Assembly: GCF_020921035.1 (NCBI RefSeq) | Contig: NC_063150.1 | Span: 30,179,826-30,243,825, forward strand | DNA length: 64,000 bases | From: Rhodamnia argentea | Lineage: Eukaryota; Streptophyta; Magnoliopsida; Myrtales; Myrtaceae | Direction of reading: 5' to 3' | In this document: positions 1,677-52,668 of the stretch, one piece after another | Layout of the letters: each line of letters starts with the position of its first letter | Position numbering within the stretch: position 1 is the first letter of the stretch | Translations under genes and position numbers: made by a program | The notes under the pieces: model-generated | Told to the model about the DNA's origin: nothing | What the model saw: the letters and a program-made list of their open reading frames with translations, nothing else | Database searches by the model: none

Positions 1677-2026
1677 GTCTTGGGAACCGATTTATGTGCC
1701 AGATCTGCTCTGTTGCGGAGGATTTGGGCAGAGCAGGCCTTGAGTGAGTGCTTCCAACCTTTTTGCCTATCATTTTCTCTATACATTTGATTTCATTTGG
1801 TGTTTAAAACATTCCAGCGCAAACGGTGTTGAAAGGTCTTTGCAGCTTAAAACCTTTAAGTCTCTTTGCTAGACGAAAAGAATGAGTAGTCATCTTAGTC
1901 CAGGGAATGATGCTCCTTTATCTTTTTGTGCCTCTTATGGTAATCCTATTGTTCTGTTTTTCTTGAGCAGGACGTCCTGGGATCTCGAGTGGAGGGGAGA
2001 CTCTGTAATCGCCTGATCTGACCTAA
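1677..2026 (+). pseudogene. PEPC-kinase-like 3' end, copy 1 (pseudogene)
   Basis: Two remnants match the C-terminus of plant PEPC kinase, a small Ser/Thr kinase that phosphorylates phosphoenolpyruvate carboxylase. Exon 1 (ending 1743) reads ...LLRRIWAEQAL and has an intact GTGAGT donor. After a 227-bp intron ending TTGAGCAG, exon 2 (1971 on) reads RPGISSGGETL and then a TAA at 2006-2008, before the usual ...PDLT end at 2024-2026. The catalytic domain is absent. A late intron just before the HPWIL-type motif is the known PPCK gene structure. This is a dead tail carried along with the CNL duplication. Confidence 0.75.
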
Positions 2027-2125
2027 GAAAAGATTCATGCATCTGTCGATTGTGCAAAGAGACTGTTAATGTCAAAATTTGTGTCTAAAGGTTGCCTATT
2101 CATTATGCCATCGATGTGAATAATT

Positions 2126-2127
<2 letters not shown>

Positions 2128-2157
<30 letters not shown>
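2128..2157. repeat. (GA)n microsatellite in PPCK-like 3' flank
   Basis: A run of about 14 GA units. It lies at the same relative place as the runs at 19566-19605 and 52772-52826, so it predates the block duplication and has changed length since. Confidence 0.95.
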
Positions 2158-2161
<4 letters not shown>

Positions 2162-3480
2162 CATGACTCCAAACACCCACCAAACTTTATATTTGGTATG
2201 ACTCTGCAGCTATTGAGTCGCCACATGAGTCTGCCACCAAAAGTGACAGCAGCTTCATCGTTCTTCAGAAATTTAGGATGCACAGGATAACACTTTTAAA
2301 AATAAATTTTTTTTACTTCAAAAACTCTTTTAAAGCAGAAAACTGTTCTGTAACGTGACTTTTAAAATGGAGATTCATTTGGTTAAAAATTTTTACTTCT
2401 GAAAAAAATTCTTGTAGTGACTTTTTACTTTTAAAGTTACTTTTCTCCTAATTTGAAAAGTTAATAAAAATTACCTCTCAACTCAAAAATTACTTCTCGC
2501 ATCACTCTCTTTTCATTACACCCTCTCTCTTTTTTCGACCACGCCCAGAAAAATTATCTGTGCTTGTTGCATAAACTTTGGTTTGTGTGAATCTAAGACA
2601 GTAGATACTAGTGGCTTATGACCTCTGTCGATGCTTTTATTTTCGAATTTTTTGCTGATATCTAGAGAGAATAAAGGATGTGAATACAAGGTAAACGATT
2701 TACTTCTGCTGTTTTTACAAAAAGATTGTTTGCCTTCGATTAATAATGTAAATTAATTTGCAGAAGAGTTGGATTTGGCAACCTTCTTTTTGTGGAGAAT
2801 CGGTGCCTTGGTGCTTAATGATGGATGGTTGTTGAACGAACTAAAGAAATTGCAGTTTCCTTCACTTGCTGATAAAAGACTTGTCCTGCACCTGCTTAAT
2901 GCTTGCCATGTCGTTTAATTCATTTACGGAGTCCAAGGCAAAATAGTCGTCAGACCAGATGTCCTCATGGGGTATCTGACTTGCGATGACAAACCCTAAT
3001 CGACGACATTTCTAGTCTCGCAGAAGTTTACACAGTGCAAAAGGGAAAAATTGCAACCCAATAAAATGATTGAATTGCTAACCGAGCAATTTTTAAGTTC
3101 AAATTATCATGACGTTTTCTTATTTAGCGAGCGACTTTAGTAGTCGATGGGAAGGCATGGACAAGACATGAGATGTTAGATCACAAAGTGACTAACATCT
3201 ATTCAAATGATCGAGAAATTGTTGAGAGGGGGGAAAAAATTAGCTACTAGGGATGAATCTTGAGGTCCGAGTTAATTAAATTCTCGAGATTCATTAGAAT
3301 TATTTGCTATAAACAAAACGTTTTAGAAGTCACCTTTGCTGCTGTATCTCCACAGCTGTCTTTTACTCGTGTCAAAGAAAATAGTACAACCAAAACGGAG
3401 GGCGCATGTAGCATTTGCCTGGCTATGTTTTTCATAAAAGGAAGTTATGATGTCCTCCATTCAATTTTATAAAAGAACAC
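2158..3480. repeat. Duplicated spacer module downstream of PPCK tail, copy 1
   Basis: Nearly collinear with 19606-20940 at high identity, and more distantly related to 4363-5090, 31980-32740 and 40060-40440. Landmarks are CACCCACCAAACTTTATATTTGG, a CAGTAGATACTAGTGGC motif and GAGAATAAAGGATGTGAATA. It represents the 3' flank of the PPCK-like gene up to the next CNL 3' flank. Possible coding traces around 2765-2880 (a frame reading LATFFLW) are broken between copies. No functional gene is supported. Sequence from 3480 to 3731 shows nothing recognisable. Confidence 0.75.
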
Positions 3481-3731
3481 ACATTCATAGTGAAATATGG
3501 CAAAAACTAAAACAAAATAGTTCCAATCTTGCAGCTACAATACATACTATTTGAAAATATGAGCCTGAATATTTATGTATTAAATATTATCGAGGAGTGG
3601 CTCCGCTTGCGACGCCACTCGGTAGATAAAGAACTTGTAAGGGGGGAGAAAACGGGAATATGCATAAAATGTTAGGACGAGATTAAACATTGCTCGAAAG
3701 CTTGAAGACCTGATTAATGAATGAACATTAC

Positions 3732-4362
3732 CCACTGTCTCAGAGACTGATATGGCTCGTCCCTCTTAGGGTCAACTACCTTGCGCCCGGATATGAGTTC
3801 TAAGAGAACCATCCCAAATGCATACACATCTGTTCTTATCGAAACCGTACCATTCTCTGCATATTCTAGTGCCAAGTACCTGCAAATTTCAGCAGAAAAA
3901 AAAAATCTTAGCTTTAAACTAGAAACTAAGTCTAAAGACGCGCAACTCTTCCTCTAATAATCCACTCAAATGACAAATTAATCCTCACCCTAAAGTTCCA
4001 AGAATCCTGGTGTGCTCTGGATCATCACTTGTTTTCCACTTAGCTAGGCGAAAGTCTCCTAGCTGTGTGAAACCAGGAAGTTCGATCAGACCCAGAAACG
4101 TATGATTCACCTAGCACATTGCAAAGGCATGGATTTAATTTGGTGAATAGGAACAAACTCGAATTGGCATATAGTTACCATGGGCACGAACTCGTGCGTG
4201 AGCAATATGTTACTAGGTCGCACGTCGCGATGGATTATCGGGCCTCCGCGGCACTCTTCGTGTAGAAAGCGCAGACCTTTTGCCGTTCCGATGGCTATCG
4301 CGTGTCTCCGGTGCCACTCTAAGACACTTGTTGGATTGTCTACGAAAAAGGCACATCTGAAG
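3732..4362 (-). pseudogene. Receptor-like kinase fragment (three exons, truncated)
   Basis: Three exons on the minus strand match the catalytic region of a plant receptor-like/cytoplasmic kinase. Exon a (4362 to about 4181) reads VLEWHRRHAIAIGTAKGLRF followed by HEECRGGPIIHRDVRPSNIL and ends at a GTAACT donor. Exon b (4062-3989) reads LGDFRLAKWKTSDDPEHT and ends at GTGAGG. Exon c (3879-3732) reads YLALEYAENG followed by RTDVYAFGMVLLELISGR and ends at a GTAATG donor. The N-lobe and C-terminal part are missing. The DFG motif is DFR and APE is ALE, so it would be inactive even if expressed. Conserved exon borders show it came from a genomic copy, not a retrocopy. The closest family I recognise is the inactive-kinase/PERK-like RLK group, tentatively. 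Confidence 0.8.
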
Positions 4363-4861
4363 ATTCCTCGGGTGAACATGACTCCAATGACCCACCGAGC
4401 TTTATTTTTGTTTACGGCTCTGCAGTTGGTGAGTGGGCCCATGAGTCTGCCCCAACCAGTGGCAGCGGCTTCTTCTTCCCCCAGAGAATTTCAGCAACTC
4501 TGCTTATTGTATATACTTTGGTTTCTATGAGAATCTTAGTAGATAGACACTAGTGGCTGAAGAGCTTTTCAAGTCCTTTTCTTTTTGATTTTTTTCCATA
4601 TATTTGGAGAGAATAAAGGATGTGAATAGAAGGTAGAGACTTTACTTCTACTGCGTTCACGAAAGGATGGTTTGCCTTCAATTAAGAATCCAAGTTAAGT
4701 TGCAGAAGAATTGGGTTTGGCTACCCCTTCTTTTGAGGAGAATCAGTGCCTTGTGCTAATGATGAATGGTTATTGGATGAACTAAGGAAATTACGGTCTC
4801 CTTCACTGCAAGTTCAAGCTGATAAAAGAATTGGTCCTGCTTATCACGTGGTTTACTTCAT
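4363..4861. repeat. Duplicated spacer module, copy 2
   Basis: Starts at TGAAGATTCC next to the receptor-kinase fragment. Matches 31980-32500 closely (AACATGACTCCAATGA, then the block ending TTCTTCTTCCCCCAGA) and the copies at 2158, 19606 and 40060 more loosely. It leads straight into the conserved unrecognised exon-like segment at 4862-5074. No gene is supported in it. Confidence 0.75.
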
Positions 4862-5074
4862 TTGCAGAATCTAAGGCAAACCAATAGACACACGAGATGC
4901 TCCCAAAGGGTTTCTGATAGAATCGTTAACCGAACAATTAAAAGATTAAATCATCAGAGAATGTGGGGATGTTTTTCTTATACCTTATCGAGCTACTCGG
5001 TGGAGAAACAATGCGATGACATTTTGACATCGGGCATGGACAAGACACTGGAGGATACCTCGCGGAGCAAATAA
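4862..5074 (+). pseudogene. Unrecognised exon-like remnant, copy in block A
   Basis: An open stretch whose end reads TLSSYSVEKQCDD, then SGMDKTLEDTS, then a stop. The same residues occur in the paralogue at 32508-32708, where the frame is open for 66 codons. Between the copies there is a 1-nt indel near 4945, so the upstream part is out of frame here. A TTTGCAG splice-acceptor-like string precedes both. I do not recognise the family. It may be the last exon of a gene lost from the cluster, or just conserved noncoding sequence. Confidence 0.35.
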
Positions 5075-5954
5075 ACTCCACCTAAATGATGGCAAAATTG
5101 TGAAGAGGGGGAAGAATTTGCAACTAGGGATGCAATCTTGAAGTCCGAGTCCACTAAATTCTCTGAATACATCTGAATTATTTGAAATAAACCAAAGGTT
5201 TTAGAAGTCAATTCTGCCGCTCTATCACATGGACTGTCTTTACTTATATAAAAGGAAATAGGGCAACTGAAACAGGGGGCTTTTGTGGAGAAAGTCAAGT
5301 GAGTCCTCCTCTGGTCGAATTTGCAGAAAGACATATATTCCTACTGAAATATGGCAAAAACGACGACGACGACGACGACGACAATAATAATAATAAATAA
5401 ATAAATCCCCAGCTTTCAGCCGCAATACATGCTGCTATTACAAAATACTGACATTATTGGTATATTTAAATATTAAATTATGTTTTCATCTAATAACTTA
5501 AGCTCGCGGTAGATCAAATCTATCCAGTTCCGTTATTTATACTTTCCTAATTATATATTTTCATGCTCAATTTTAAGTCATCTACTAGTTTACGCTTTTA
5601 AAACAGTTAATTGTAGTCCAACAAAATCTGTCAATCTCGTCTCTTTTATTTATTTATTTATTTTCTTTCGACAAAAACTCCGTGCCAAATAAAGTCGGAT
5701 GCAATGATGCTGGCGAATCAATAGTTCCTTTCCAGTGGGGCCCAACATAGCCATTGATAATTGTTGCGTGGAATAAATCATGAATTGAGAGAGCACGCAA
5801 ATGGATCCATAAGAATAGAAGACCGTTGCAATGCACGAGATTAGGAGAGCATCCTTTTTACTCTTCTCATTACGAAGATATTAGTAATGAATTTTTACAC
5901 TCTTTTAACTTTTGTGGCTAATCTGCATTCCCTTCATTTTGAGTATTCGCAACT
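5075..5954. other. 3' flank of NLR-A, no gene seen
   Basis: Collinear with 32709-33615, the 3' flank of NLR-C, as part of the A/C block duplication. It contains a compound (ACG)n(AAT)n microsatellite at 5358-5403. The reading frames at 5240-5425 and 5654-5836 are repeat-driven or unsupported. Confidence 0.7.
5358..5403. repeat. Compound trinucleotide microsatellite
   Basis: ACG repeats followed by AAT/AAAT repeats. The homologous site in block C (33002-33063) instead has CAA then AAT repeats, so both length and motif have shifted since duplication. Confidence 0.9.
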
Positions 5955-5972
5955 TTTCTAATGACAAACTTT

Positions 5973-6162
5973 TTTTTTTTTTTGATGACCCAGGGAATCC
6001 CCGCACGGCCGGCAGTCGAGAGGTAAACCCTGGGGGTAACACGTGTTAGCCACCACACACGTGCCACCGGTTAAGTCACCCCGCAACGCCCCTGGGATTC
6101 GAACACTCGACCTTTTGCGAGAGGAAGAGTACGTGAACCGGCGGCGCCACCCGTGTGGGTGG
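5973..6162 (-). mobile_element. tRNA-derived SINE (minus strand)
   Basis: An insertion of about 190 bp is absent from the paralogous site near 33611-33630. It is flanked by long direct repeats TTTCTAATGACAAACTT (from 5955 and from 6163). The plus strand starts with a poly-T run, which is the A tail of a minus-strand element preceded by TCATC. On the minus strand there is a box-B-like GTTCGAATCCC (about 6092-6102). Long target duplication, A tail and Pol III box are hallmarks of a tRNA-derived SINE. The tail resembles those at 10831 and 15139, suggesting one family. Confidence 0.85.
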
Positions 6163-6514
6163 TTTCTAATGACAAACTTTTAGTTTTGCCTAATCTAAAG
6201 ATTTTTACTAATGTCTTTTAGATGAATTCCTTCCACATCTGTATTTTCGCAGGTCCTTTTAATATGTTTCGCAGGTACTCGTGTACCCACATGTGATTTT
6301 TCAAATAGGGAAATTGTAATTCTTTGTTATTTATTTAGGTCGATTAATGCAAGAAAGATCAGAAACAATTGCAATGATCTCCAAATAAGGTAACGACAAC
6401 AACGAGAAGATAGCATATTGATAAAAGGAAGAAATCACAAATAAAAGCACCAGAGTATTTCCTCTTCTTTCCCTCAGGGATCAATAGACGGAGCAAGGGG
6501 AGTGGCGGAGGGGC

Positions 6515-10659: not shown

Positions 10660-11010
10660 TGGGTTAATATCACGAAAAACCTCAAATACCTGTGGCAAAT
10701 TTATTCCAAATTATTTTTATGACCACGAAAAACTCCAAATCGTTACACCTGTAATAAATTTACATTCCGTTAGTTTCCATTAAATTTTACCATCAAATTA
10801 TTGAGTTTGATGGCACGTAACAATTGACGGGGGTGTGTCTCCCGAGGAATAGTCGTGCTCTACCACCGGTTTGAGCCATAGCTCGCCGGCCACGCGGACA
10901 CCTCGGTTATCAAAAAAAAAAAAAAAATTGACGAGGTGTATCGGTTTGAGATTTTTACTATGTGTTTGTCATATGTTTATTAGTTTGGAATTTTTCGTGA
11001 TATTAACCCA
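10660..11010. mobile_element. MITE with GGGTTAATAYCACG ends
   Basis: The ends are inverted: TGGGTTAATATCACGAAAAA at the left, and TTTTTCGTGATATTAACCCA at the right. The paralogue in block C (38160-38410) has the same ends, so the insertion predates the A/C duplication. A SINE (10831-10925) has since inserted in this copy. Noncoding; the superfamily is probably Mutator-like, but no clear target duplication is visible. Confidence 0.65.
10831..10925 (+). mobile_element. Short SINE-like insertion, A-tailed
   Basis: A 95-bp insertion is absent from the paralogous site near 38327. It is flanked by the direct repeat AATTGACG (10823-10830 and 10926-10933) and ends CGGTTATC plus an A tail. The same tail design occurs at 15139-15386. 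Its short length implies 5' truncation of the same family. Confidence 0.75.
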
Positions 11011-11110
11011 ATTTAACGGAAACGAATGGGGGTAAATTCATCACAGATGTATCGGTTTGGAGTTTTTGATGGTAAAAAAATATTTTGGAGTAAATTTATC
11101 ACATGTGTAC

Positions 11111-13592: not shown

Positions 13593-13597
13593 TGTAC

Positions 13598-15386: not shown

Positions 15387-15658
15387 AACCACTCGTTTGA
15401 CTCTATACAGGCTAAAAGTAAAACAACCCATATAATATAATATATGCAGAAAGTAAGGAACAAAAAGCACTGACAACTAAATAAGATAACAACAGCAACA
15501 AGATAGCAGCCCGGGGATATGAAAGTTCTTAGATAAAAAATATCGATAATGGAAGGAGTCATAAAAGCGGCGGAGGATCTTCTTGCTCGTGACGATGGTC
15601 TTCTAGGATCAATGACGGACCAAAGGGACTAGCAGGGGGGCCAGCATATCCCTACGAT

Positions 15659-18523
15659 CTACGAAACTTGAGGCAGAACCTCATCGCGGCTCATCGCCCT
15701 ACCCTTGATGACATTGTAGGATTGGATGCTAAGATCATGCATCTCCCAGTGACCCTCTATCTGCCAGATAAAGGAGACTCTCGGGTTACGTTCCATCACC
15801 TCCTCATAGCACTCTTGCACAACACCCTCCCTCATTCCGCTACTGCTTTGCGGATAGAACGCAAGAGCAAATTCTTCTGGCATCCCAAAGAATTTGAGAT
15901 CCTTGAGGTTCGCGAGGCTGCGGATAACAACCAGTAATGATTGCCAGTCCAAGTGCCGGCATCCGACAATGGAGAGACTCTCAAGGCAAGGCATTGCCTG
16001 ATCATTCATCAACACAAAGCTCAGATTTTCCAGATCTTCAAAGTGCAACTTCTTCAGTTTTGGGAACCCTCCATCTCCAAAAACCAATGTTTCCCCATCA
16101 AAGGCATTATGTAGATAAAGATCCACCAGATTGGGCAAATTCTGGAGGGCAATTAGGGGGCTCGATTTCAGTCTGCTCCATCCCAAACGCAATCCGGTCA
16201 GTTTGTTCAGCAGAGGTACCCAATGAGGCAGCTCCTTTAGACATCCTTCCATATATAGACCCCGCAGGAGCAGGGGAGGTGAAGACAGAATATCCAAATC
16301 GATAACTTCAGACTCACTTTCTGCAGTCACATATAGCGATCGAAGATTGGTCATCTTCTCGAGGGAGTGGCATAGTTCCTTTGCATCGTCTGTCTTCAAC
16401 TCCGTTACGCCCAGACTCGTTAGCTGACTTAGCTCTCCCAGCTCTTGCAAAATATTCTTGCTCCGACCACCTCCAGCTTTCACATAGCACAGTTTTTGCA
16501 GTGATTTTAGCGCTCCCATGCCCTCGGGAGCCGAAATTCCCTTTCTAGGACCGAAGGGTAGAGGAAATGTGAGCTCTGAATCACGGTACACCAACAGATT
16601 CTGTAATTTCTTGAGCTTGGTTATCTCCACAGGCAGCTCCGAGACCAACGTCTGTCTAAGATCCAGAGTCTCCAGACTTTGGAGTTTCCCGATTGAACTA
16701 GGAATGATGCGCACTTTGGTCCCTCTCAAACTTAGATACTTCAAGTGGAACAGGACTGGTATTTGTCTGGGGAAGTTGTGAAGGGACGAGCCTTCCAGAT
16801 CTAACACCCTCAGCAGCTTAGAGCCACTTGGGACGAGTTGCTCATCTGTGGTTGACGATTCTCCAAACTCAAAAACGAGCAGAGAGCGTAGGCGGGGGAG
16901 ATTTAGCTGGTTTAGTGCATTGTTGTTGGTGGACTGGACTGACAGACGCCGCACTCTTTCGTGCAATTCTTTTTTCTGCCCAGATGCGAATGAAACAAAG
17001 TCTTCATCCCTTAACCTAGAAAGGATGCTTTCACGCATTAGGTCATGTACCCTACAACGTTTTAGCCTTCCACCTCTTGTTTCTGCGATTTGCACCAAAC
17101 TCCTGTTTATAAGCTGCTTCAGGTGTCTTTCAGCAACCTCGTCTTGTGTCATCCCTTCTCTTTCCTCAACAAATCCTTCTGCAATCCACAGACGGTAGAG
17201 TCTCCTACACCGAATCACTTGATCCTCTGGAAATACTCCCAAGTACAAAAAGCAGCTTTTCAAGTGAGCAGGCAAATCACTGTAGCTCAAGCTGAGAATT
17301 TTCCCGAAAATTTGCATCCTGTCATCGGTTTCTAGTTCTGCAGCAAGGCTGCGGGCAATCATCTCCCATTCTTGGTCATCTTTTGCAAAGAGAAGGCCAC
17401 CAATTGCCACTATGGCCAGGGGCAAACCCTCACATTTTCTCAAAATCTGTACAGAAAGGTGCTCTAGGTGAGGAGGACACGGCTTCCCACGGAAGGCTTT
17501 CTTGCAGAATAAGGACCATGATTCTTCTGGAGATAAGGGCATACGGGTATAAACTTTTGATGGGTGGGATGAGACAGTAGCAATGTCAGCTTTGCGAGTA
17601 GTGATTATTATTCGGCTACAGAAGCTGCTATTAGGCAATGCATTTTTTATACTATCTAGTGCTTGCAACTTCCATACATCATCGAGATCAATGACGTACC
17701 TCTTTTGCTGCAGAAAGTCTTGCACTATCTGCTTGAGGCTCGTGATATTCATGGATTCTAATCCTTGAGGAACCGGCTGCTGAATTTCTTTATGTAGTTG
17801 TGCAATTATGTCCCTCAAGATACTCTGAATATTATGAGTCTGGGAGACACTGATCCATGCATGGCTTTGGAAGTAGGCTTTCACTTGGCGATCGTCGTAG
17901 ACTCTTTTTGCCAGAGTGGTCTTCCCTGAACCCCCCATCCCTAAGATCGACATAACTTCAAGTCCGGGTTCTCCACCAACAAGCCATCTAATAAGCTTTT
18001 CTCTCGGCTGGTCAATCCCCACCAGTTCACCTTCCTCGACAAGAAAAATGTCCTCCCTGAGATCGTGCCATGAGGTGCCTCTGCTGGATGCGCTCGCACT
18101 TTGCTCTGCGTCATATGGTTTCAAATTGTGTCGCTGATACCCTTCGGCGATGCTGCGGACTCTTGACTTGATATCATCTATCTTGGAGGAGATATGATGG
18201 CGTGCTTTCAAGTTCTGTATGGATGACTTGATCTTGTGAAAGCACTTCCTGAACCCATGTCCATGATCTGTTGCCAAGTTGAGCGTGAATTCATCCAGAA
18301 TATCCTCCACATCGTATGCAACCTCTCTGACTTGTTTCACCCGTACCTTCAACTCAGGATAATCTTCTTGCAACGACTCGGCACGTTCTAAGAAGGCCTT
18401 CATGTGCTCAAATTCATCTCTGATGAGTACGATTTCTCCACGTAGCCCTTTCAATAGTTTCGCCTCTTTCTCGACGAGCGTAGAAAGCTTCCCAAGCAGA
18501 AAAGAAACTGCGGATTCTGCCAT
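15659..18523 (-). CDS. NLR-B: RPM1-like CC-NB-LRR resistance protein, intact
   Basis: An uninterrupted 954-codon, apparently intronless gene; size and layout are normal for RPM1-type CNLs, immune receptors whose NB-ARC switches between ADP and ATP states on effector perception. Residues 1-130 form an Rx-type coiled coil with the EDVID-like VEDILDEF (72-79). The NB-ARC has P-loop GMGGSGKTT (195-203), RNBS-B SRIIITTR (303-310), GLPLA (366-370), RNBS-D CFLYLGVFPED (424-434) and VHD in place of MHD (492-494). LRRs run from about 530 to 930. The start MAESAVSFLLGKL matches the family and the NLR-D paralogue. The Walker-B strand reads YVIDLDDVW where NLR-C and NLR-D have YVIVLDDVW, placing an acidic residue in a hydrophobic strand; this may impair nucleotide binding. 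It is the only CNL here likely to give a full protein. Confidence 0.95.
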   Translation of the reverse strand: MAESAVSFLLGKLSTLVEKEAKLLKGLRGEIVLIRDEFEHMKAFLERAESLQEDYPELKVRVKQVREVAYDVEDILDEFTLNLATDHGHGFRKCFHKIKSSIQNLKARHHISSKIDDIKSRVRSIAEGYQRHNLKPYDAEQSASASSRGTSWHDLREDIFLVEEGELVGIDQPREKLIRWLVGGEPGLEVMSILGMGGSGKTTLAKRVYDDRQVKAYFQSHAWISVSQTHNIQSILRDIIAQLHKEIQQPVPQGLESMNITSLKQIVQDFLQQKRYVIDLDDVWKLQALDSIKNALPNSSFCSRIIITTRKADIATVSSHPSKVYTRMPLSPEESWSLFCKKAFRGKPCPPHLEHLSVQILRKCEGLPLAIVAIGGLLFAKDDQEWEMIARSLAAELETDDRMQIFGKILSLSYSDLPAHLKSCFLYLGVFPEDQVIRCRRLYRLWIAEGFVEEREGMTQDEVAERHLKQLINRSLVQIAETRGGRLKRCRVHDLMRESILSRLRDEDFVSFASGQKKELHERVRRLSVQSTNNNALNQLNLPRLRSLLVFEFGESSTTDEQLVPSGSKLLRVLDLEGSSLHNFPRQIPVLFHLKYLSLRGTKVRIIPSSIGKLQSLETLDLRQTLVSELPVEITKLKKLQNLLVYRDSELTFPLPFGPRKGISAPEGMGALKSLQKLCYVKAGGGRSKNILQELGELSQLTSLGVTELKTDDAKELCHSLEKMTNLRSLYVTAESESEVIDLDILSSPPLLLRGLYMEGCLKELPHWVPLLNKLTGLRLGWSRLKSSPLIALQNLPNLVDLYLHNAFDGETLVFGDGGFPKLKKLHFEDLENLSFVLMNDQAMPCLESLSIVGCRHLDWQSLLVVIRSLANLKDLKFFGMPEEFALAFYPQSSSGMREGVVQECYEEVMERNPRVSFIWQIEGHWEMHDLSIQSYNVIKGRAMSRDEVLPQVS

Positions 18524-19010: not shown

Positions 19011-19123
19011 AGAGGACTGGTTGTTGGTAATTCTCGTGATCATCCTAGCAATTTTCTAAGTTCCAACAAAAATACAGAGAACCGAGAAAACAAAGGAATT
19101 TATCGACCACGAAAAACTTCAGC

Positions 19124-19463
19124 CCAAAACGCAGCATGGTTAATGCTGTTGCTTCCTGAGGGAAGCGTCTTGGGAACCGATTTATGTGCTTCCAACCTTT
19201 TAGCCTATCATTTTCTTTATCCATTTGATTTCATTCGGTATTAAAACATTCCAGCGCCAATGGTGTTGAAAGGTCTTTGCAACTTAAAACCTTTAAGTCT
19301 CTTTGCTAGACAAAAGGAATGAGTGGTCATCCTAGCCCAGGGAAGGATGCTCCTTTATCTTTTTGTGCCTCTTATGGTAATCCTATTGCTCTGTTGTTCT
19401 TGAGCAGGACGTCCTGGGATCTTGAGTGGCGGGGAGACTCTGGAATCGCCTGATCTGACCTAA
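19124..19463 (+). pseudogene. PEPC-kinase-like 3' end, copy 2
   Basis: Homologous to 1630-2026. Exon 2 (19408-19463) is fully open: RPGILSGGETLESPDLT then stop, after an intact TTGAGCAG acceptor. The end of exon 1 and the splice donor are gone. A deletion of about 52 bp removed the EQAL segment, joining GTGC of one flank to GTGC of the other, which suggests slippage between short direct repeats. With no kinase domain and no donor it cannot be functional. Confidence 0.75.
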
Positions 19464-19562
19464 GGAAAGCTTCATGCATCTGTCAGATGCGCAAAGAGAC
19501 TGTCAATGTCAAAATTTGCGTCTAAAGGTTGCCTATTCATTATGCCATTGATGTGAATAATT

Positions 19563-19565
<3 letters not shown>

Positions 19566-19605
<40 letters not shown>
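19566..19605. repeat. (GA)n microsatellite
   Basis: About 19 GA units, equivalent in position to 2128-2157 and 52772-52826. Confidence 0.95.
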
Positions 19606-19608
<3 letters not shown>

Positions 19609-20940
19609 ATGACTCCAAACACCCACCAAGCTTTATATTTGGTACGACTCTGCAACTATTGAGTGGCCACATGAGTCTGCCACCAAAAGTGACAGCAGCT
19701 TCATCGTTCCTCAGAAATTTTGGATGCACAGGATAATACTTTTAAAAATAATTTTGTTTTGCTTTAAAAACTCTTTTAAAGCAGAAATCTGTTCCATAAC
19801 GTGACTTTTAAAATGGAGATTCATTTGGTTAAAAAGTTTTACTTCTGAAAAAAATTCTTGTAGTGACTTTTTACTTTTAAAGTTACTTTTCTCCCAATTT
19901 GAAAAGCTAATAAAAATTACCTCTCAACTCAAAAATTACTTCTCGCATCACTCTCTTTTCATTACGCCCTCTCTCTTTTTTCGACCACGCCCAGAAAAAT
20001 TATCTGTGCTTATTGCATAAACTTTGGTTTGTGTGAATCTAAGACAGTAGATACTAGTGGCTTATGACCTCTTTCGATCCTTTTATTTTCGAATTTTTTG
20101 CTGATATCTGGAGAGAATAAAGGATGTGAATACAAGGTAAACGATTTACTTCTGCTTTTTTTACAAAAAGATTGTTTGCCTTCGATTAATAATGTAAATT
20201 AATTTGCAGAAGAGTTGGATTTGGCAACCTTCTTTTTGTGGAGAATCGGTGCCTTGGTGCTTAATGATGGATGGTTGAACGAACTAAAGAAATTGCAGTC
20301 TCCTTCACTTGCTGATAAAAGATTTGTCCTGCTTAATGCTTATCACGTGTTTTATTCATTTGCGGTGACCAAGGCAAAATACTCGTCAGACCAAATGCTC
20401 TGATAGGGTATCTGACTTGTGATGACAAACCCTAATCGACAACATTTCTAGTCTTGCAGAAGTTTACACAATGCAAAAGGGAAAAATTGCAACCCAATAA
20501 AATGATTGAATTGCTAACCGAGCAATTTTTAAGTTCAAATTATCGTGACGTTTTCTTATTTAGCGAGCGACTTTAGTAGTCGATGGGAAGGCATGGACAA
20601 GACATGAGATGTCAGATCACAAAGCGAATAACATCTATTCAAATGATCGAGAAATTGTTGAGAGGGGGGAAAAATTAGCTACTAGGAATGAATCTTGAGG
20701 TCCGAGTTAATTAAATTCTCGAGATTCATCAAAATTATTTGCTATAAACAAAAGGTTTTAGAAGTCACCTTTGCTGCTCTATCTCCACAGCTGTCTTTTA
20801 CTTGTGTAAAAGAAAATAGTACAACCAAAACGGAAGGCGCATGTAGCATTTGCCGGGCTCTGTTTTTGGTAAAAGAAAGTTTTTATGTCCTCTTATTCAA
20901 CTTTGTAAAGAACGCACATTCATACTGAAATATGGCAAAA
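19606..20940. repeat. Duplicated spacer module, copy 3
   Basis: Highly similar to 2158-3480 throughout, with only small indels. The 62-codon frame at 20215-20403 is not conserved as a frame in the other copies, so it is not annotated as a gene. Confidence 0.75.
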
Positions 20941-21244
20941 TCTCAAAGAAGATATAAAAAAAAAAATCCAAATCTTACAACCACAACACATACGATTTGA
21001 AAATATTATCTTGAATATTTATATATTAAAGTACGCATTCATACAGATCTAGTGAGGCCGCCCTTCGTCCAAGCTGCGCGGGTTGGCCCCTTGCCAGATT
21101 CGTTGAGGGCGGCCCTTGCTTGTGGGCGGTCGCCGACCATGGCCGTGTATCAACCATTGGCCAAAGGGAAAGGAAAGGGGAAAAAAAGGAAAAGAAAGAA
21201 ATGAAACAAGGAAAAGAAAAAGGAAAAAGGGAAAAAATCGCTAA

Positions 21245-30973: not shown

Positions 30974-31825
30974 GATGATCATGGGGTGGCCGCCGTTCCC
31001 GGGTGAGTCGGCCTCGAAGGTCTTCAAGGCAGTGCTGAGGGGGAACCTCAAGTTCCCGGCCCCCTTTAGGACGGTGCCATCGACGGCAAAAGACTTGTTG
31101 AGGAAGATGATTTGCGGGGATGTTTTGAGGAGAACTTCTGGAGAGCAGGCCTTGAGGGAGTGCTTTCAATTTGTTTGCCCATTGTTGAAGTTGTTGTCCT
31201 ACATCGCTTGCTAACGGGTTCTATGCGCTCTTTATATTCATGTGGTCTACTTCCATCTTCCACCTACTAGCTTAAACTTCGGGCTTGGACATTTTAACAT
31301 GATATCAGAACGGATGTTATCCCATTCGCGAAAGTGCGTCCACTAGCATTCATATGGTCTCGTTCCATCTATCGGCTTAGTTTTTTGTGTTAGACTTTCT
31401 AACACCCATCATTGCATTAAAATGTTCAAAGCCCATTATAGTAGATAAAATGTTCAAAGCCCAATTATAGTAGATTTTGCAGGCCTTGAAAATGGCGTTG
31501 AAAGGTCTTATGTAGCTATAGACTTTTATTCTGCTATTGGTAGACAAAAAGAATTGGAGGAAAGTTCTTTTCTGAATAAAACGGAAGTTTATTTGTTAGC
31601 TTCCTTTTCAGCGTTTCCAGAAATTTAAGGAATGTCATGTTTGATTTAACGTGTTAACCTCTCCAAGATTAAGCAATCATCTTAATTTAGGGAATTGTAC
31701 TTTTTAATTTTTTGTGCCTCTCTTATGGTACTCCTCTTGCTCTGTTTTTGCTCTGTTTTTCTTGAGCAGGACATCGTTGGATCCTGAGTGGAGGGGAGAC
31801 CGTAGACTTGCCTGATCTGACCTAA

Positions 31826-32507
31826 GAAAAGGTACATGTATGTCTCAGAAGCGCAAAGAGACTATCACTGTCAAAAATTGCGTATAGATGTTGCCTATCG
31901 AGTGGGCCAATGTTATGAACAATTTTCTTGAGAAGATGACCAAGTTTGAATTCCATTCGTCTGATGCAACAAACTGAAGATTCCTGGGATGAACATGACT
32001 CCAATGAACCCACCAATCTTTATTTCCAGTACGACTCCGCAGTTGGTGAGCGGCCACATGAGTCCGCCCCCACAAGTGCCAGCAGCTTCTTCTTCCCCCA
32101 GAATTTCAGCAAACACTGTTTTTGGTTCTATCTTCTCTGGTTATTGTATAAACTATAAAGTAAGGTTTATATGAGAATCTGAGACAGTAGATAGATACTA
32201 GTGGCGTAAGAGTTTTTCTGGTCCTTCTCTTTTCGAATTGTTTCCTGATACTCGGAGAGAATAAAGGGTGTGAATAGAAGGTAGAGACTTTACTTCTGCT
32301 TTTACGAAACGATGGCTTGCCTTCAATTAAGAACGTAAATTAAATTTGCAGAAGAATTGGATTTGGGCTGCCCCTTCTTTTGTGGAGAATCAGTGCCTTT
32401 GTGCCAATAATGGATGGTTATTGGATGATGAACTCAGGAATTACAGTCTCCTTCACTTGGAGTTCAAGCTGATAAAGAGCTGTTTTAATATCATTTGCAG
32501 AATCTAA
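31826..32507. repeat. PPCK-like 3' flank and spacer module, copy 4
   Basis: Follows the PEPC-kinase-like stop codon directly, showing that the module repeated across the cluster is the native 3' flank of that gene. Matches 4363-4861 best, including the block ending TTCTTCTTCCCCCAGA and CAGTAGATAGATACTAGTGGC. Confidence 0.75.
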
Positions 32508-45214: not shown

Positions 45215-45600
45215 AATGAAAAAGGGAATATTATTTTAGAATAAATGATTGAATTGGTACCCGAATACGTTCATGTTGTCATATCTTGTTGACCCAGTCG
45301 TTGGAGAAATTATGCAACTAATATCTTGACATTTAGCATAGATAAGATGGTGGGTGCGCGTAGTAAAAATCCGATATCTTCACCTATAGATTTTGTTAAG
45401 AGAGAGGTCGAATATAAGCCCGTCAACATATCTAGTTAGACCCCACCTTGCTCACAAGATTAAGCTAACGAGTTCTAAAATTTCTTTCTTACGAGATTTG
45501 GGTTAACAAACCAATCTACATCCTCCAATCGAGTTGTTTGCTTAAACTTGAGACATAATTTAAAGCGCCCGAGAAGTTACATTGCGAAGCGAATAACTCT
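45215..45600. repeat. Tail of spacer module, diverged copy
   Basis: Resembles 4960-5060 and 32620-32700: an ATATCTTG...GGAGAAA..ATGC..CT...CTTGACAT pattern. The frame seen in block C is not preserved. It forms the right border of the Copia insertion. Confidence 0.5.
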
Positions 45601-46237
45601 ACTCAAATGATCTCAAAATTGGAAGCGGTAGAAACAAATTAGCCAGGAGTAATGCAATGTTGAGGTCCGAGTTTATTTAATTCTCAAGATGCGTCTGAAT
45701 TATTAGCAATAAAGGAAAGGTTTTAGAAGTCAATTTTACTGCTCTATCCCCAAGCTATCTATACTTGGAAAAAATAAAATAAAAATGGGAACAACTGAAA
45801 CAGCAGGCGGCGGGCGCATGTAGCATTTGCCTGGCTCTGCTTTTCATGAAAGAAGGTTAATTGTGCCCTCTATTCAATTTATCATATCTGTCGATCCTCC
45901 ATCTATTTTCATAGCATGTGATCTTCCAAGACGCAAAATTGTAATTCTTCTCGTTTCTTTAGTCAAACCACTCGTTTGACTCCATACAGGCCAAAAGTAA
46001 AACAACCCATATAATATAATATATGCAGAAAGTAAGGAACAAAAAGTACTGACAACTAAATAAGATAACAACAGCAACAAGATAGTAGCCCGGGGATATG
46101 AAAGTTCTTAGATAAAAAATATCGATAATGGAAGGAGTCATAAAAGCGGCGGAGGATCTTCTTGCTCGTGACGATGGTCTTCTAGGATCAATGACGGACC
46201 AAAGGGACTAGCAGGGGGGCCAGCATATCCCTACGAT
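45601..46237. other. 3' flank of NLR-D
   Basis: Nearly identical to 14760-15658 minus the SINE, giving that insertion's empty site at ACCACTCGTTTGACTCC (about 45966). No gene. Confidence 0.75.
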
Positions 46238-49200
46238 CTACGAAACTAGAGGCAGAACCTCATCGCGGCTCATCGCCCTACCCTTGATGACATTGTAGGA
46301 TTGGATGCTAAGATCATGTATCTCCCAGTGATCCTCTATCTGCCAGATAAAGGAGACTTCCGGGTTACGTTCCATCACCTCCTCATAGCACTCTTGCACG
46401 ATACCCTCCCTCATTCCGCTACTGCTTTGCGGATAGAACGCAAGAGCAAATTCTTCTGGCATCCCAAAGAATTCGAGATCCTTGAGGCTCGCGAGGCTGC
46501 GGATAACAACCAGTAATGATTGCCAGTCCAAGTGCCGGCATCCGACAATGGAGAGACTCTCAAGGCAAGGCATTGCCTGACCATTCATCAACACAAAGCT
46601 CAGATTTTCCAGATCTTCAAAGTGCAACTTCTTCAGCTTTGGGAACCCTCCATCTCCAAAAGCCAATGTTTCCCCATCGAAGGCACTAACCAGTCCAAGC
46701 TCCACGAGATTGGGCAAATTCTGGAGAGCAATTAGGGGGCTCGATTTCAATCTGGACTGTGACAAACTCATTTTCACCAGATTGTTCAGCAGAGGTACCC
46801 AATGAGGCAGCTCCTTTAGACATCCTTGGATATTTAGAGTCCGAAGGATCAGGGGAGGAGAAGATAGAAAATCCAAATCAATAACTTCAGACTCACTTGC
46901 TGCGGTTACACTTAGTGTTCGCAGGTTGGTCATCTTCTCGAGGGAGAGGCATAGTTCCTTTGCATCATTTGTCTCAAGGCCCATCACACCCAGCCTCGTT
47001 AGTTGACTTAATTCACCCAGCTCTTGCATTGTATTCTTGCTCCGACCCCGTCCAGCTTTTACACAGGTCAATTTCTGCAGTGATGCCAGCGCTCCAATGC
47101 CCTGGGGAGCAGAAAATCCCGTAACAAAACCTAGGTCATTCACTCCCGTATAACTGTACACCACCAGATGCTGTAATTTCGTGAGCTTGGTTATCTCCAC
47201 AGGCAGCTCAGAGACCAACGTCTGTTTAAGATCCAGAGTCTCCAGATTTTGGAGTTTCCCAATTGACCTAGGAATGATGCTCACGTTGGTCCCTCTCAAA
47301 CTTAGATACTTCAAGTGGAACAGGTCTAGTATTTGTCTGGGGAAGTTGTGAAGGGACGAGCCTCCCAGATCTAACACCCTCAACAGCTTAGAGCCACTTG
47401 GGACGAATTGCCCATCTGAGCTTGACGATTCTCCTACCTCAAAAATGAGCAGAGAACGTAGGCGGGGGAGGATTAGCTGGTTCAGTGCATTGTTGTTGGT
47501 GGATTCGACTGACAGACGCCGCACTCTTTCGTTCAATTCTTTTCTCTGCTCAGATGCGAACGAAACAAAGTTTTCATCCCTTAACTTAGAAAGGATGCTT
47601 TCACGCATTAGGTCATGTACCCTACAACGTCTTAGCCTTCCGCCTGAAACTCTTTCTGCAATTTGCACCAAACTTCGGTTTATAAGCTCCTTCAGGTATC
47701 TTTCAGCAACCTCCTCCTGTGTCATCCCTTCTCTTTTCTCAACAAATCCTTCTGCGATCCACAGACGGATGAGTCTACTACACTCAATCTCATGATCCTC
47801 AGGAAATACTCCCAAGTACAAAAAGCAACTTTTCAAGTTATAATGCAAGTCATTGTAGCTCAAGCTGAGAATTTTCCTGAAAATTTGCATCCTGTCATCG
47901 CTTTCCAGTTCTGCAGCAAGGCTACGATTAATCATCGCCCATTCTTGGCCATCTTTTGCAAAGAGAAGGCCACCAATTGCCACTATGGCCAGTGGCAAAC
48001 CCTCACATTTTCTCAAAATCTGTAGAGAAAGGTGTTCTAGGTGAGGAGGACAGGGCTTCCCACGGAAGGCTTTCTTGCAGAATAAGGACCATGATTCTTC
48101 TGGAGATAAGGGCATACGGGTATAAACTTTTGACGGGTTGGATGAGACAGTAGCAACGTCAGCCATACGAGCAGTGATTATTATTCGGCTACAGAAGCTG
48201 CTATTAGGCATTGCACTTTTTATACCATCTAGTGCTTCCAAGTTCCATACATCATCTAGAACAATGACGTACCTCTTTTGCTGCAGAAAGTCTTTCACTT
48301 TCTGCTTGAGGCTCGCGATACTCATGGATTCTAATCCTTGAGGAACCGGCTGCTGAATTTCTCCTTGTAGTCGAGCAATTATGTCCCTCAAGATACTCTC
48401 AATATTATAAGTCTGGGAGACACTGATCCATGCATGGCTTTGGAAGTAGGCTTTCACTTGGCAATCGTCGTAGACTCTTTTTGCCAGAGTGGTCTTCCCA
48501 GAACCCCCCATCCCTAAGATCGATATAACTTCAAGTCCGGGTTCTCCATCAACAAGCCAATTAATAAGATCTTCTCTCGGCTTGTCAATCCCCACCAGTT
48601 CACCTTCCTGGACAAGAAAAGTGTCCTCCCTGAGATCGTGCCAGGAGGTGCCTCTGCTGGATGCCCTCGCACTTTGCTCCCCGTCATATGGCTTCAAATT
48701 ATATCGCTGATGCCTTTCGCCGATGCTGTGGACTCTTGACTTGATATCATCTATCTTGGAGGAGATATGATGGCGTGCTTTCAAGTTATGTATGGATGAC
48801 TTGATCTTGTGAAAGCACTTCATGAACCCATGTCCATGATCTGTTGCCAAGTTGAGCGTGAATTCATCCAGAATATCCTCCACATCGTATGTGTAACACC
48901 CCAATTCCTAGCAAAAAAAGGGAATGACACAGCCGTCCTCCCTTCCGAAGGACGCAGCCTTAAACCACCCAAAATCGAACTTCCAAAAATCACCATTGAT
49001 AATGCTCTGGCTCTAATGGCAACCTGAAAGATTGGGAAAGAAAGGGATGAGCAACCACAGCTCAGTGAGTAGTGCGTACCTCTTCTAAGCAGATCGAGCA
49101 CCCACTATGCATATTTACAAAATCATAACCGAACTCAATAATCCCAAACTCGCTTGATAATATGAGCACAACTACAAATATAAATTATTTACTTTCATCG

Positions 49201-51163
49201 GTCATAATACACACTAAAGTACGCGGTCACGTGAATAACAAAGTCTTTAAATACATGTTACTTTTAGCTATCACAGTTCATATATATACAAAACCAAAAG
49301 TGAGTTATATCTTTCTACAATAACTTTATAAATATCAAAAATCTTCATTTAAATCAACAAAACTTCAAATCAAATATCAATGGTCTATTCCATTGATTAA
49401 TCTCATACATAATCAATGACGATGGTCCATTCCATCGACTAATCTCAAATCACATGTCAATAGTCCATTCTATTGACCAAACTCATGCTCAAATATCTAA
49501 CTATGGTCACGTATAACGCCTCGTGACAAGGCGACCAAGATTCCCCCCTTGACAAGGTCTCCACCTATAATGCCGGTGGCTCGGCCCACAAGGATATCCT
49601 AACATTAGTATGCGCATACCCACAAGTCCCTCAATGGGCTCATAGCGATATTGAGCATCAACACAACTCATAGTACTATTTTTACAATTCACAAAACAAT
49701 TCAAAATCAATATCACAAGTTGGTTTCTCAACTAAAACCGATAGCCTTTTCGCAAAAACTCACCGCTAGAAATACTTTTGTAAAGCACTTCCCAAATCAT
49801 TTTCGAAACTCATTCCACAAGCTAGTTTGCAACTTAATGCACATGTATATAAACAAGTATATAATGAAAATGACTTTCACCATACCTTTCATAACACATT
49901 TATAAACTTTTCGTAATGGCTGTCATACGGACTTTTTAAACCATTTCAAATAGCAAATGGGGTAGCAAATGCCCGATCCGAAGTTATGCATTAAATATGC
50001 TATAAACATCACTTTTCCCTTTTAGCGAAATCACACTTTTCACATAATACATCTCATACTTTTTATTTTTCAAAATATGCATTTACTAATTCAAAGAAGA
50101 GATAACACCACTCACCTGGAAAAGCCAAAAACTAGCTTAGGATTGTTACTCGAGCCGACACACACGTGTTCCTATCGGATATAATGAAAACCATTATCAA
50201 AAATAACAAGCTACTCTACAGCATGAATTGATTGAAAAATGTCTATTTGTCACTAAGACGACACCTACGCACCAACAAAACGCTCGCTCATGAGGAACAC
50301 GCATGTTGTCCGCTACACGCAGCTTGCGCGTTAAACTTAAACGAACCATAACTCCCTCCTCCGAGCTTCGATTTAAACGAACTTATAGTCCAAAGAAAGC
50401 TCTTTTAATGTACAACAAAACCCCCAACACAGCTCATCCATAATCTATCCAAAAATCGGCAAGAACGGGCGCAACATGTTCTGGTCGCGCACTGTTCACT
50501 GCACGTGTCAAACTTCCAATTTTTGTTTCGGACAAACCACAAGTCCAAATCGAGTTCTGTAAAGTCCCACAGCACCACAACACCCTAAACTATCGTTACC
50601 CTAAAGAATCTCAACTTAACGACTCCAAAATCTGACTTCGCGGCTCAATTTTCCCATAAATCCGAATTTGAGCCCTAAAAACGAAAACCATTCCGATTAT
50701 ATGAACGAGGAGCACAAGCACTTACAGAGCCTTGTGAATCGAAGTTGAATCGTCTTGAAGGGCATCCGATTCTCGTACGCCATCTCTTTCTTCTTCTTCT
50801 TCTTTTTCTTCTTCTTCTCTCCCGAGTGTTTTCTCTCTCCCCGTTGCTGCCCCTCTTTTCTTTTATAATATGAGCCCCTTTTCTTCTTTGACTTTTCAAC
50901 CCTTTCCTTTTCTCTTTTTTTTTTTTTTGACTTCGTCAAAACCATATTTTACAGTATGCAACCTCTCTGACTTGTTTCACCCATATCTTCAACTCAGGAT
51001 CATCTTCTTGCAACGACTCGGCACGTTCTAAGAAGGCCTTCATGTGCTCAAATTCATCTCTGATGAGTACGATTTCTCCACGTACCCCTTTCAATAGTTT
51101 AACCTCTTTCTCGACGAGCATAGAAAGCTTCCCAAGCAGAAAGGAAACTGCGGATTCTGCCAT
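46238..51163 (-). pseudogene. NLR-D: RPM1-like CC-NB-LRR gene disrupted by a solo LTR
   Basis: The N-terminal 70 codons (51163 to about 50954) begin MAESAVSFLLGKL and run to KQVREVAY. The frame resumes at 48891 with YDVEDILDEF and stays open to the stop at 46238, covering the whole NB-ARC (GMGGSGKTT, YVIVLDDVW, GLPLA, CFLYLGVFPED, VHD) and LRRs. The only disabling change seen is the 2062-bp LTR inserted in the EDVID-like motif. RNBS-B reads SRIIITAR, not TTR. Upstream of the second part the frame meets a TAG within the LTR, and the first in-frame ATG is at MKCFHKIKSS. A product initiated there would lack most of the coiled coil. The insertion is probably young, because the remainder has not decayed. 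Confidence 0.93.
48892..50953 (-). mobile_element. Solo LTR inside NLR-D coiled-coil exon
   Basis: A 2062-bp insertion with TGTAACACCCC at the left and ATATTTTACA at the right, flanked by GTATG (48887-48891 and 50954-50958). NLR-B has the unoccupied ATCGTATGCAACC at the same place. On the minus strand a TATA-like ATTATAAAAGAAAAG occurs near 50855-50870, so the LTR lies in the same orientation as NLR-D. There is no internal coding region. The pyrimidine-rich block at 50785-50935 gives spurious Lys/Arg-rich frames on the minus strand. Confidence 0.93.
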
Positions 51164-52275
51164 TGCTCTTGCTCACTGATCGCACGAGAGCAAAACTCAG
51201 GCCAGAAGGAAATAGCTGCAGTGTCGGTGTCGGACACGCTCCTACACGCGTTCGATGCGAGGTCAACGGCAGCGACAGGCCGGGCACACGCGTGTCGGTG
51301 AGGAAGGAGAGCAGGGATGGCACAGATCTGGAGGGTAGAGATCGGAGGAGAAGGGGAGGACTGAGGAGTTGTCTGCCTCTTAGGCCATGAAAGCGACGAG
51401 GGAGAGAGCCGGCGATCCGCGGCGAGCGCTGGAGGAGAGACGAAGCAGCCAAACCAGGGGGGTCGTCATTCCCTTCGCGAGACAGAGAGGAGAGAGAGGT
51501 GAAGCAGAGATTTTTTTTAAAAAGTAAAGAGAAGAAGGGGGTGGTGGTATAAGACGTAAGATCAGAGAGGAGGAGAGAGCATTTTCTGACTTGTGTCTAA
51601 TCTACTGTGCAGTGTACGGAGCTAGCCAGTGTAAAGCTCTGTTTTTTCCATTTAATGGGAAAGAAAAGAAGGCAGATTTTCGGAAATCCGCTGGGCTCAC
51701 TCGGCTGAGCGCAGGATATTTTTTAAAAAAAGTAAACGAAGGGAGCGCGGGGGAGCGTGTTTTGTCTGTGGGGTCTATCAATCGTCTAGAAAACTCTTCG
51801 ACCAAAAAAAGAAACAATTGTCTAGACTCTAGTTCAAATTACGGGACCATTAATGGTAGACTTTTTTTTTTCATTTTTTAAAAAATTATAAAAATGGTAA
51901 TTATATATTTAATATATAACATATTCTCAACATATCAGAAATTTTTATTTTTTAAAAATTACGTGTATCGCGTCCGTATTGTAATCACTGGTACTGTTTA
52001 AGACTAAAAGAAAGAATCCTTTGTGCGAGCATCAAAATGGGCTCCAGCTCATCTACTCGGCGAATCCTTCATGTGACTTCTCCACTCTGATAGTACAACT
52101 ATAATTGCGCTAGCCGAGCCAAGTCAACTGCCAAGTAACTCCAGCTGCAATTTCGCATGGCCCCACTGGCAATTATTGCACTGCTGCATCGGCAGACTCG
52201 TCTACTCACTATCCAGTCAACAATGGATGCTGGAATTGTGGAACGGGGCGAGCTAAAAGTGAGAGTGAGCGACCC
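51164..52275. promoter_or_regulatory. 5' flank of NLR-D
   Basis: 51164-51510 matches the NLR-B leader; 51548-52250 matches window positions 1-680. Relative to block 1 it lacks the hAT MITE and the 452-bp LTR, the deletion joining directly to CCCAAAACGCAGCGTGG. The frames on both strands at 51591-51881 are not conserved. No core promoter can be fixed. Confidence 0.55.
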
Positions 52276-52668
52276 AAAACGCAGCGTGGTTAATACTGTT
52301 GCTTCCTGAAGGAAGCGTCTTGGGAACCGATTTATGTGCTAGATATGCTTTGTTGCGGAGGATTTGGGCAGAGCAGGCCTTGAGTGAGTGCTTCCAACAT
52401 TTTTGCCTATCATTTTCTTTATCCATTTGATTTCATTTGGTGTTAAAACATTCTAGCGCGCAAACGGTGTTGAAAGGTCTTTTCAGCTTAAAACCTTTGA
52501 GTCTCTTTGCTAGACGAAAAGAATGAGTAGTCATCTTAGTCCAGGGAATGATGCTCCTTTATCTTTTTGTGCCTCTTATTGGTAATCCTATTGCTCTGTT
52601 TTTCTTGAGCAGGACGTCTTGGGATCTTGAGTGGAGGGTAGACTCTGGAATCCCCTAATCTGACCTAA
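52276..52668 (+). pseudogene. PEPC-kinase-like 3' end, copy 4
   Basis: Exon-1 end (…LLRRIWAEQAL, to 52383) with an intact GTGAGT donor; intron; exon 2 from 52613 reads RLGILSGG then TAG (52639-52641), before TLESPNLT stop at 52666-52668. Closest to copy 1, but its premature stop is at a different codon, so the two were disabled independently. Confidence 0.75.

Follow-up and report, generated by a model that had tools for sequence, protein, structure and literature searches.

Why do pieces of a gene for phosphoenolpyruvate carboxylase (PEPC) kinase, PPCK, recur in the midst of a cluster of CNL resistance genes? This question is raised by a 64,000-nucleotide stretch of the Rhodamnia argentea genome (contig NC_063150.1, here C1; C1:30179826-30243825), to which we refer as the window and in whose coordinates features are given unless a contig is named. 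An earlier note on this DNA had described the tail of a PPCK gene as being repeated four times together with its 3' flank, and had suggested that the copies were carried along by the duplicating CNL genes and were then disabled separately. Our analysis indicates that the kinase segments are very probably pseudogenes that travel as passengers in an NLR array evolving by birth and death, and that they seem to have been mostly dead before they were copied.

Copy number and PPCK ancestry of the relics

The repeats are real, and the four copies in the window are its share of ten. A BLAST comparison of the window with itself aligned positions 1545-3584 with 19039-21030 (90% identity), 1632-2214 with 52272-52883 (90%), and 1878-2276 with 31665-32109 (69%). 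The cluster was mapped by BLAST of sub-segments on a 244-kb stretch (C1:30069827-30313825), in which exon 2 of the kinase gene is present at ten sites with E values of 2e-10 to 8e-29 (the query was the exon 2 of an A tail, and its own site is counted). These ten PPCK relics, all on the plus strand and with intron and long flanks kept, lie among 15 CNL loci and belong to two lineages. Six are 5'-truncated tails that adjoin CNL 5' ends (A1-A6, near C1 positions 30124737, 30147731, 30181458, 30198949, 30232098, and 30284752; mutual identity 92-99%); four are longer pseudogenes that face CNL 3' ends (B1-B4, near 30101.3, 30156.7, 30208.2-30211.7, and 30250.1 kb of C1; 92-96% over intron, exon 2, and flank). 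Identity is 59-66% between A and B, compared with 92-99% within a lineage. The relics of the window are A3, A4, A5, and B3.

Genome-wide searches covered the 346.7-Mb assembly. With window positions 1677-2677 as the DNA query and the best 40 of 330 candidates scored, matches to the tail were confined to one 0.19-Mb stretch, C1:30.10-30.29 Mb. Outside the cluster, matches among these best 40 covered query positions 592-871 alone, which represent a dispersed repeat within the 3' flank of the A lineage. This repeat (about 250-290 bp; window 2268-2560) has copies of 72-80% identity on many contigs; within the cluster, blastn located its 2300-2560 part nowhere but at the relics A3 and A4 and at two sites around 30.094-30.096 Mb.

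Intron position and phase, exon 2, and matches at the protein and DNA levels agree that the segments derive from a PEPC kinase gene, as the earlier note had proposed. Outside the cluster, they are matched most closely by three intact PPCK-like genes, at C6:20043929 (-), C1:20249451 (-), and C1:20258755 (+), where intact refers to open exons in the assembly and action on PEPC would follow from family membership. The two C1 genes are about 9 kb apart and divergently oriented. The relics have their intron at the same position and in the same phase as all three genes; in relics and intact genes, AEQAL or ADQVL precedes the exon border A/GTGAG (donor TTG A/GTGAG), and RHPW or SHPW follows. An origin as a retrocopy is ruled out because the intron is retained. 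In eight of the ten relics, exon 2 is 18 codons long, and the C6 gene is similar: relic B2 reads RHPWILSGGETVDLPDLT, the C6 gene RHPWMLNEGETNSLADLT, and A4 RRPGILSGGETLESPDLT, each followed by a stop.

The N-terminal piece of B1 scored 35.2 bits against Pfam PF00069 (Pkinase; cut-off 31.7). The C-terminal piece of B3 alone fell below that cut-off (15.2 bits); it matches CaMK-group kinases in the PDB, and each of the three intact PPCKs at 60% on the amino acid level. For the N-terminal piece, the corresponding values are 64% with the C6 gene and 47-49% with the two C1 genes; the matches are thus not the chance similarities that the earlier note had named as its possible undoing. At the DNA level, B1 matches the C6 gene in exon 1 (E 4e-48) and in exon 2 (E 2e-7).

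Among the window copies, the kinase domain is retained in the one at 28.4-31.8 kb alone; the other three keep at most about 50 nt of exon 1. An end of exon 1 is present in A3, A5, and B3; the 19.2-kb copy has none. Over its first 60 nt or so, the A segment has no similarity to PPCK (as judged from A5). We had considered PPCK similarity over the whole 117-nt A segment and rejected it: the first 60 nt of the A5 copy scored within the range of shuffled sequences for all four targets. The 3' part of the A5 segment scored higher against B1 than any of 200 shuffles; its similarity to the intact genes is weak for the C6 gene (9 of 200 shuffles as high) and one C1 gene (10 of 200), and nil for the other (155 of 200).

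PPCK genes generally have a late intron directly ahead of HPW, and their proteins typically end soon after the kinase domain, with no calmodulin-like region. The relics resemble plant PPCK genes in that the kinase domain ends shortly after HPW and the late intron has the phase found in the three intact genes; they are unlike them in that all ten copies are broken and the A copies are tails only. An intact catalytic frame is absent throughout, all four B copies being frameshifted and all six A copies lacking the kinase domain. Judged by their reading frames, the cluster copies are PPCK pseudogenes, not PPCKs, and they would not be expected to phosphorylate PEPC. According to excerpts of one paper, PPCKs are one class of the CDPK-SnRK superfamily, with a C-terminal domain unlike that of the remainder (PMC5301275).

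Placement beside the CNL genes and mosaic identity

CNL pieces in the 244-kb stretch were located by tblastn with the intact 954-aa protein of CNL195, the other loci being recognised by their similarity to it, and pieces of one gene that are split by insertions were chained into the 15 loci. All pieces are on the minus strand. CNL195 (15662-18523, -) has Pfam matches to Rx_N (1.5e-25), NB-ARC (1.9e-56), WH_DRP (9.8e-20), and LRR_14 (1.2e-52). Its subfamily is confined to the cluster, with 53-100% identity there and at most 47% elsewhere (best 48 of 1661 candidates). In CNL226, an insertion of about 2 kb (48905-50953) splits the gene near codon 70; the joined pieces are open over 954 codons.

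Twelve of the 15 loci have PPCK 3'-flank sequence at a distance of 356-1244 bp from the 3' end of the CNL, and these are all 12 loci with a complete C-terminus (similarity reaching residue 941 or beyond). In the three flank-less loci (C1:30108389-30109915, 30163242-30165365, and 30256976-30261452), similarity stops at residue 718, the last quarter of the gene being missing. Each starts some 0.37 kb past the 5' end of a CNL facing a B relic, and we read them as a common truncated second CNL of what would be a B-type unit. An A tail stands beside the 5' end in six loci, the same six that have a long match to the 340-bp stretch upstream of the CNL (96-100% identity among the six; 302 of 340 bp in A1). 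Four of the tails stand 0.58-0.60 kb from their CNL; A5 is 1.11 kb away and A3 2.02 kb. Further copies of the 340-bp stretch are located at C1:30.124, 30.147, 30.179, and 30.284 Mb. Despite this near-identical upstream stretch, the coding regions of the six CNLs differ by up to about 13%. A relic or its 3' flank is therefore part of the repeated unit (12 of 15 loci at the 3' side, six of 15 at the 5' side), which bears out the proposal that the CNL duplication unit carried a PPCK gene. The suggestion that an intact PPCK paralogue might itself adjoin a CNL found no such support: no CNL match at E <= 1 was present near the intact genes (C6:20036500-20053000 and C1:20247951-20266000).

Agreement between the relic and CNL trees is partial. 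For this comparison, CNL pieces 116/123 and 256/260 were entered as separate rows and the smallest piece (111.9 kb) was left out. A2 and A6 pair up, as do their CNLs (138 and 281), with A4 (CNL195) close; the agreement of relic and CNL trees that the earlier note had wished to see examined is found for A2, A4, and A6 and fails for the A3/A5 and B2/B3 pairs discussed below. The placement of A1 conflicts with itself. A deletion in its 3' flank groups it with A2/A6, and the tail tree sets it next to A3/A5 (support 0.949); this may be another sign of mixed ancestry. Distances of the tails correlate with those of the 340-bp upstream stretch (r 0.71; 17 of 720 permutations) and of the 3' flank (r 0.92; 2 of 120 permutations, five units). 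All these correlations were assessed by exact permutation tests on few units, uncorrected for multiple tests and with A1 represented by an N-terminal CNL piece only. Between B1 and B4, identity is 88-96% in PPCK, the flank, and the 3' end of the CNL and 97-99.5% in the remainder of that gene; between B2 and B3, it is 96% in PPCK, 81-98% in windows of the CNL, and 66% in the sequence upstream of the latter. The natural reading of this mosaic identity would be recombination or conversion between units.

Whole-gene Ka/Ks is 0.53-0.83 in all 21 pairs of the seven full-frame CNLs (one of them rejoined across its insertion). For the LRR region taken alone, two pairs exceed 1, one of them with a ratio of 1.01 and the other with 2.48 at a Ks of just 0.006. 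In the six pairs among A3-A6, CNL Ks is 0.024-0.175, compared with a divergence of 0.9-3.8% in the 340-bp upstream stretch and 2.8-7.5% in the tails. Because upstream divergence is low relative to CNL Ks (a ratio of about 0.2-0.4), this stretch may be either constrained or more recently converted.

Shared lesions, private lesions, and the origin of the relics

The heaviest lesions are shared. All four B copies have the exon-1 frameshifts at GAGAATA(T/C)ATGTTCGATTC and before the GTGGACATGTGG motif (B4: GTGGATGTGTGG); a TAA at codon 14 is common to B1 and B4, both of which keep the N-terminus, B2 and B3 have both lost the start codon and N-terminal part, and a one-base gap relative to B4 is common to B1, B2, and B3. 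All six A copies have the 5' truncation and a Trp-to-Gly change in HPW. A 52-bp deletion between GTGC repeats, with identical ends, is found in four of them (A1, A2, A4, and A6), and a further deletion in the 3' flank in A1, A2, and A6. The exon-1 deletion reported earlier at 19.2 kb is confirmed: that copy lacks 52 bp comprising the end of exon 1 and the splice donor. Since the heaviest lesions are shared, they are older than the majority of the duplications, unless they were spread by conversion.

Lesions of a second kind are private to single copies. The TAA of A3 (2006-2008) and the TAG of A5 (52639-52641) are exactly where the earlier note had placed them; they cost exon 2 only its last 6 and 9 residues, respectively. 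In most sister copies, reading continues to a normal-stop TAA corresponding to 2024-2026 in A3, and to the counterpart of 52666-52668 in A5. We rejected the TAA at 2006 as the natural stop because eight sister copies continue to the later TAA. B3 carries the CACTA-like insertion and donor loss described before at 31.2 kb, with GAT on both sides of the element, an empty site in the three sister B copies, and the donor GGGAGT in place of the GTGAGT/GTGAGC of the sisters. Such private lesions, of which our list is not exhaustive, point to decay that continued in each copy after duplication.

These data bear on the history that the earlier note had sketched, in which working PPCK genes multiplied together with the CNLs and were knocked out afterwards, every copy on its own. 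Private lesions in B3, A3, A5, B4, B1, and B2 fit that history, and separate disabling does hold for the CACTA insertion, the donor loss, the TAA, and the TAG. It is largely refuted by the frameshifts in 4/4 B copies, the truncation and Trp loss in 6/6 A copies, and the 52-bp deletion in 4/6, and the two late stops remove few residues. Independent inactivation would be tenable mainly if conversion had spread the lesions after duplication, and we consider it unlikely.

We favor instead a passenger history. A third, divergent PPCK gene would have stood beside the founder of the CNL subfamily, oriented toward the 3' end of that gene (PPCK -> 3' flank <- CNL). Both genes together would then have become the tandem-duplication unit of the cluster with PPCK as its passenger, which persisted as the lineages A and B. 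Each was presumably damaged before the visible copies arose, A being reduced to a tail and B frameshifted. Later unequal crossing-over and gene conversion may have copied, trimmed, and reshuffled the relics among the 15 CNL loci, and single copies would then have gained private lesions, the CACTA insertion, the donor loss, and the two late stops among them.

Several observations weigh against this passenger history. Exon 2 is open up to the normal stop in eight of the ten copies, although it has 18 codons only. B4 has a TAG and an internal exon-1 deletion of its own, and B1 and B2 have one-base gaps, all of them further private lesions; gene conversion could, moreover, have spread the shared ones after copying. 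One could regard the flank that adjoins the CNL 3' ends as belonging to the CNLs; we assigned it to the PPCK side because the same flank also follows the A tails. The A3 and A5 tails are sisters and CNL176 and CNL226 are not, and likewise B2 and B3 are sisters and CNL160 and CNL213 are not, so that a plain joint duplication of PPCK with CNL in a single block would not hold for every unit. The correlation of tail distances with those of CNL coding pieces ranges from r 0.25 (115 of 720 permutations) to 0.91 (3 of 120, without A1); for pieces 1-6 in order, it is 0.37 (49 of 720), 0.25, 0.89 (1 of 120), 0.91, 0.66 (8 of 120), and 0.48 (4 of 120). Finally, the founder arrangement is a reconstruction from one genome, and the presumed loss of function of the relics is deduced from sequence.

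The A tail and the 340-bp upstream stretch could together form an exchangeable promoter-side module, moved by conversion and kept for setting CNL expression. CNL267 is 96.6-96.7% identical to the CNLs of A2, A4, and A6 yet lacks both upstream stretch and tail, and the CNLs of A1, A3, and A5 carry them on divergent bodies. We regard this module as a long shot; if it existed, a dead metabolic-regulator gene would now be in the control region of a resistance-gene family. As an explanation of the relics at large, a regulatory role, exerted either by this promoter-side module or by CNL read-through, is very unlikely. The B copies are convergent with CNLs and read-through from these would therefore be antisense to PPCK, and the low upstream divergence in the six pairs among A3-A6 would suit a regulatory element; it is equally well explained by recent conversion. 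The longest exact word that the relics A3, A5, B1, B2, and B4 share with the three intact PPCKs is 23 nt (B1 and B4, in a conserved kinase motif), all others being at most 13 nt; cross-talk with the intact genes through sequence identity is thus unlikely as well. That the fragments are cargo of a mobile element, captured and spread independently of the CNLs, is hardly credible: a CACTA-like element does lie within B3, and the 3' flank of the A tails holds a dispersed repeat, but the former interrupts B3 and is missing from its three sisters, the relics are found only in the CNL cluster, adjoining CNLs on the plus strand with intron and long flanks, and the genome searches, with best candidates scored and none aimed at element ends at relic borders, gave no element-borne copies elsewhere.

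With the passenger history as the preferred reading, the cluster looks ordinary in kind, its relics being genomic baggage that records growth and recombination. Excerpts of five papers treat NLR-cluster birth-and-death, conversion, and pseudogene copying, and the PPCK class (PMC10720953, PMC12405883, PMC5301275, PMC3113787, PMC3503547). They report gene conversion among coffee SH3-CNL copies (PMC3113787), signatures of illegitimate recombination and conversion tracts in the rose Rdr1 TNL family (PMC3503547), and duplication of NLR pseudogenes as one option for a genotype in the NLR arrays of cacao (PMC12405883). The Rhodamnia cluster resembles these three in its tandem NLRs, intact and broken, and its mosaic identity; it is unlike them, as far as those excerpts go, in that a non-NLR relic rides in the unit and can be used as a lesion-marked tracer. 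Among open-licence PMC papers, a limited set in which absence is weak evidence, we found no PPCK passenger in an NLR cluster and no paper joining PEPC kinase, NLRs, and duplication. The importance of the relics for PEPC biology is probably small because three intact PPCK genes remain elsewhere, to which PEPC regulation is probably left. Their value lies in nested, easily scored lesions beside fast-recombining CNLs, by which duplication order and breakpoints can be read from presumably neutral neighbours. They also advise caution, as not every broken copy need be an independent loss.

Features of the window

Coordinates of the relics, their flanks, and the CNL genes are compiled below.

Table 1. 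PPCK relics, CNL genes, and associated features in the window
Feature	Start	End	Strand	Remarks
A-tail 3, 5' junction stretch	1632	1690	+	in all six A tails; PPCK similarity not detectable (A5 copy tested)
A-tail 3, eroded PPCK exon 1 end	1691	1743	+	G at 1744 starts GTGAGT donor
A-tail 3, PPCK intron	1744	1970	+	
A-tail 3, PPCK exon 2	1971	2008	+	reads (A+)RRPGISSGGETL, then private TAA 2006-2008
A-tail 3, 3' flank	2027	3584	+	
B-type PPCK 3' flank without PPCK exon	4357	5280	+	left of CNL at 6.5 kb
CNL186	6519	9400	-	broken frame
CNL195	15659	18523	-	intact, 954 aa; Rx_N, NB-ARC, WH, LRR
340-bp CNL upstream stretch	18524	18863	-	long matches only at six CNLs with A tail
A-tail 4, 5' junction stretch	19123	19189	+	52-bp deletion between GTGC repeats took out exon-1 end and donor
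A-tail 4, PPCK exon 2	19408	19463	+	open to normal stop, RRPGILSGGETLESPDLT
A-tail 4, 3' flank	19464	21030	+	
B3, PPCK exon 1, mid kinase domain	28416	28689	+	like B2, without start codon and N-terminal part
CACTA-like element	28690	30973	+	2,284 bp, CACTACAAAAAA...TTTTTTGTAGTG, GAT target-site duplication, subterminal repeats
B3, end of PPCK kinase exon 1	30974	31155	+	donor GGGAGT, private to B3
B3, PPCK intron	31156	31769	+	
B3, PPCK exon 2	31770	31825	+	open, RHRWILSGGETVDLPDLT and stop
B3, 3' flank	31826	32914	+	up to CNL 3' end
CNL213	33954	36896	-	broken, convergent with B3
CNL226 body	46238	48904	-	first 70 codons beyond ~2 kb insertion
CNL226, first 70 codons	50954	51163	-	
340-bp CNL upstream stretch, A type	51164	51503	-	
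A-tail 5, 5' junction stretch	52273	52331	+	
A-tail 5, eroded PPCK exon 1 end	52332	52383	+	donor kept
A-tail 5, PPCK intron	52384	52612	+	
A-tail 5, PPCK exon 2	52613	52641	+	reads RRLGILSGG, then private TAG 52639-52641

CACTA ends, a 3-bp target-site duplication, and subterminal repeats are features of non-autonomous transposons of the CACTA (CMC/EnSpm) type. The element within B3 resembles such elements in all three respects. It would be non-autonomous at most, because its three longest open reading frames (141-273 codons) have no Pfam match at E 0.1. Capture by this element as the agent that spread the relics was rejected because the insertion is private to B3.

Directly after A-tail 5, positions 52859-54324 on the minus strand give weak integrase (rve) and zinc-knuckle matches below the Pfam cut-offs and are perhaps a decayed retroelement remnant. 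At positions 60459-60720, a unit of about 99 bp is repeated in tandem (2.7 copies).

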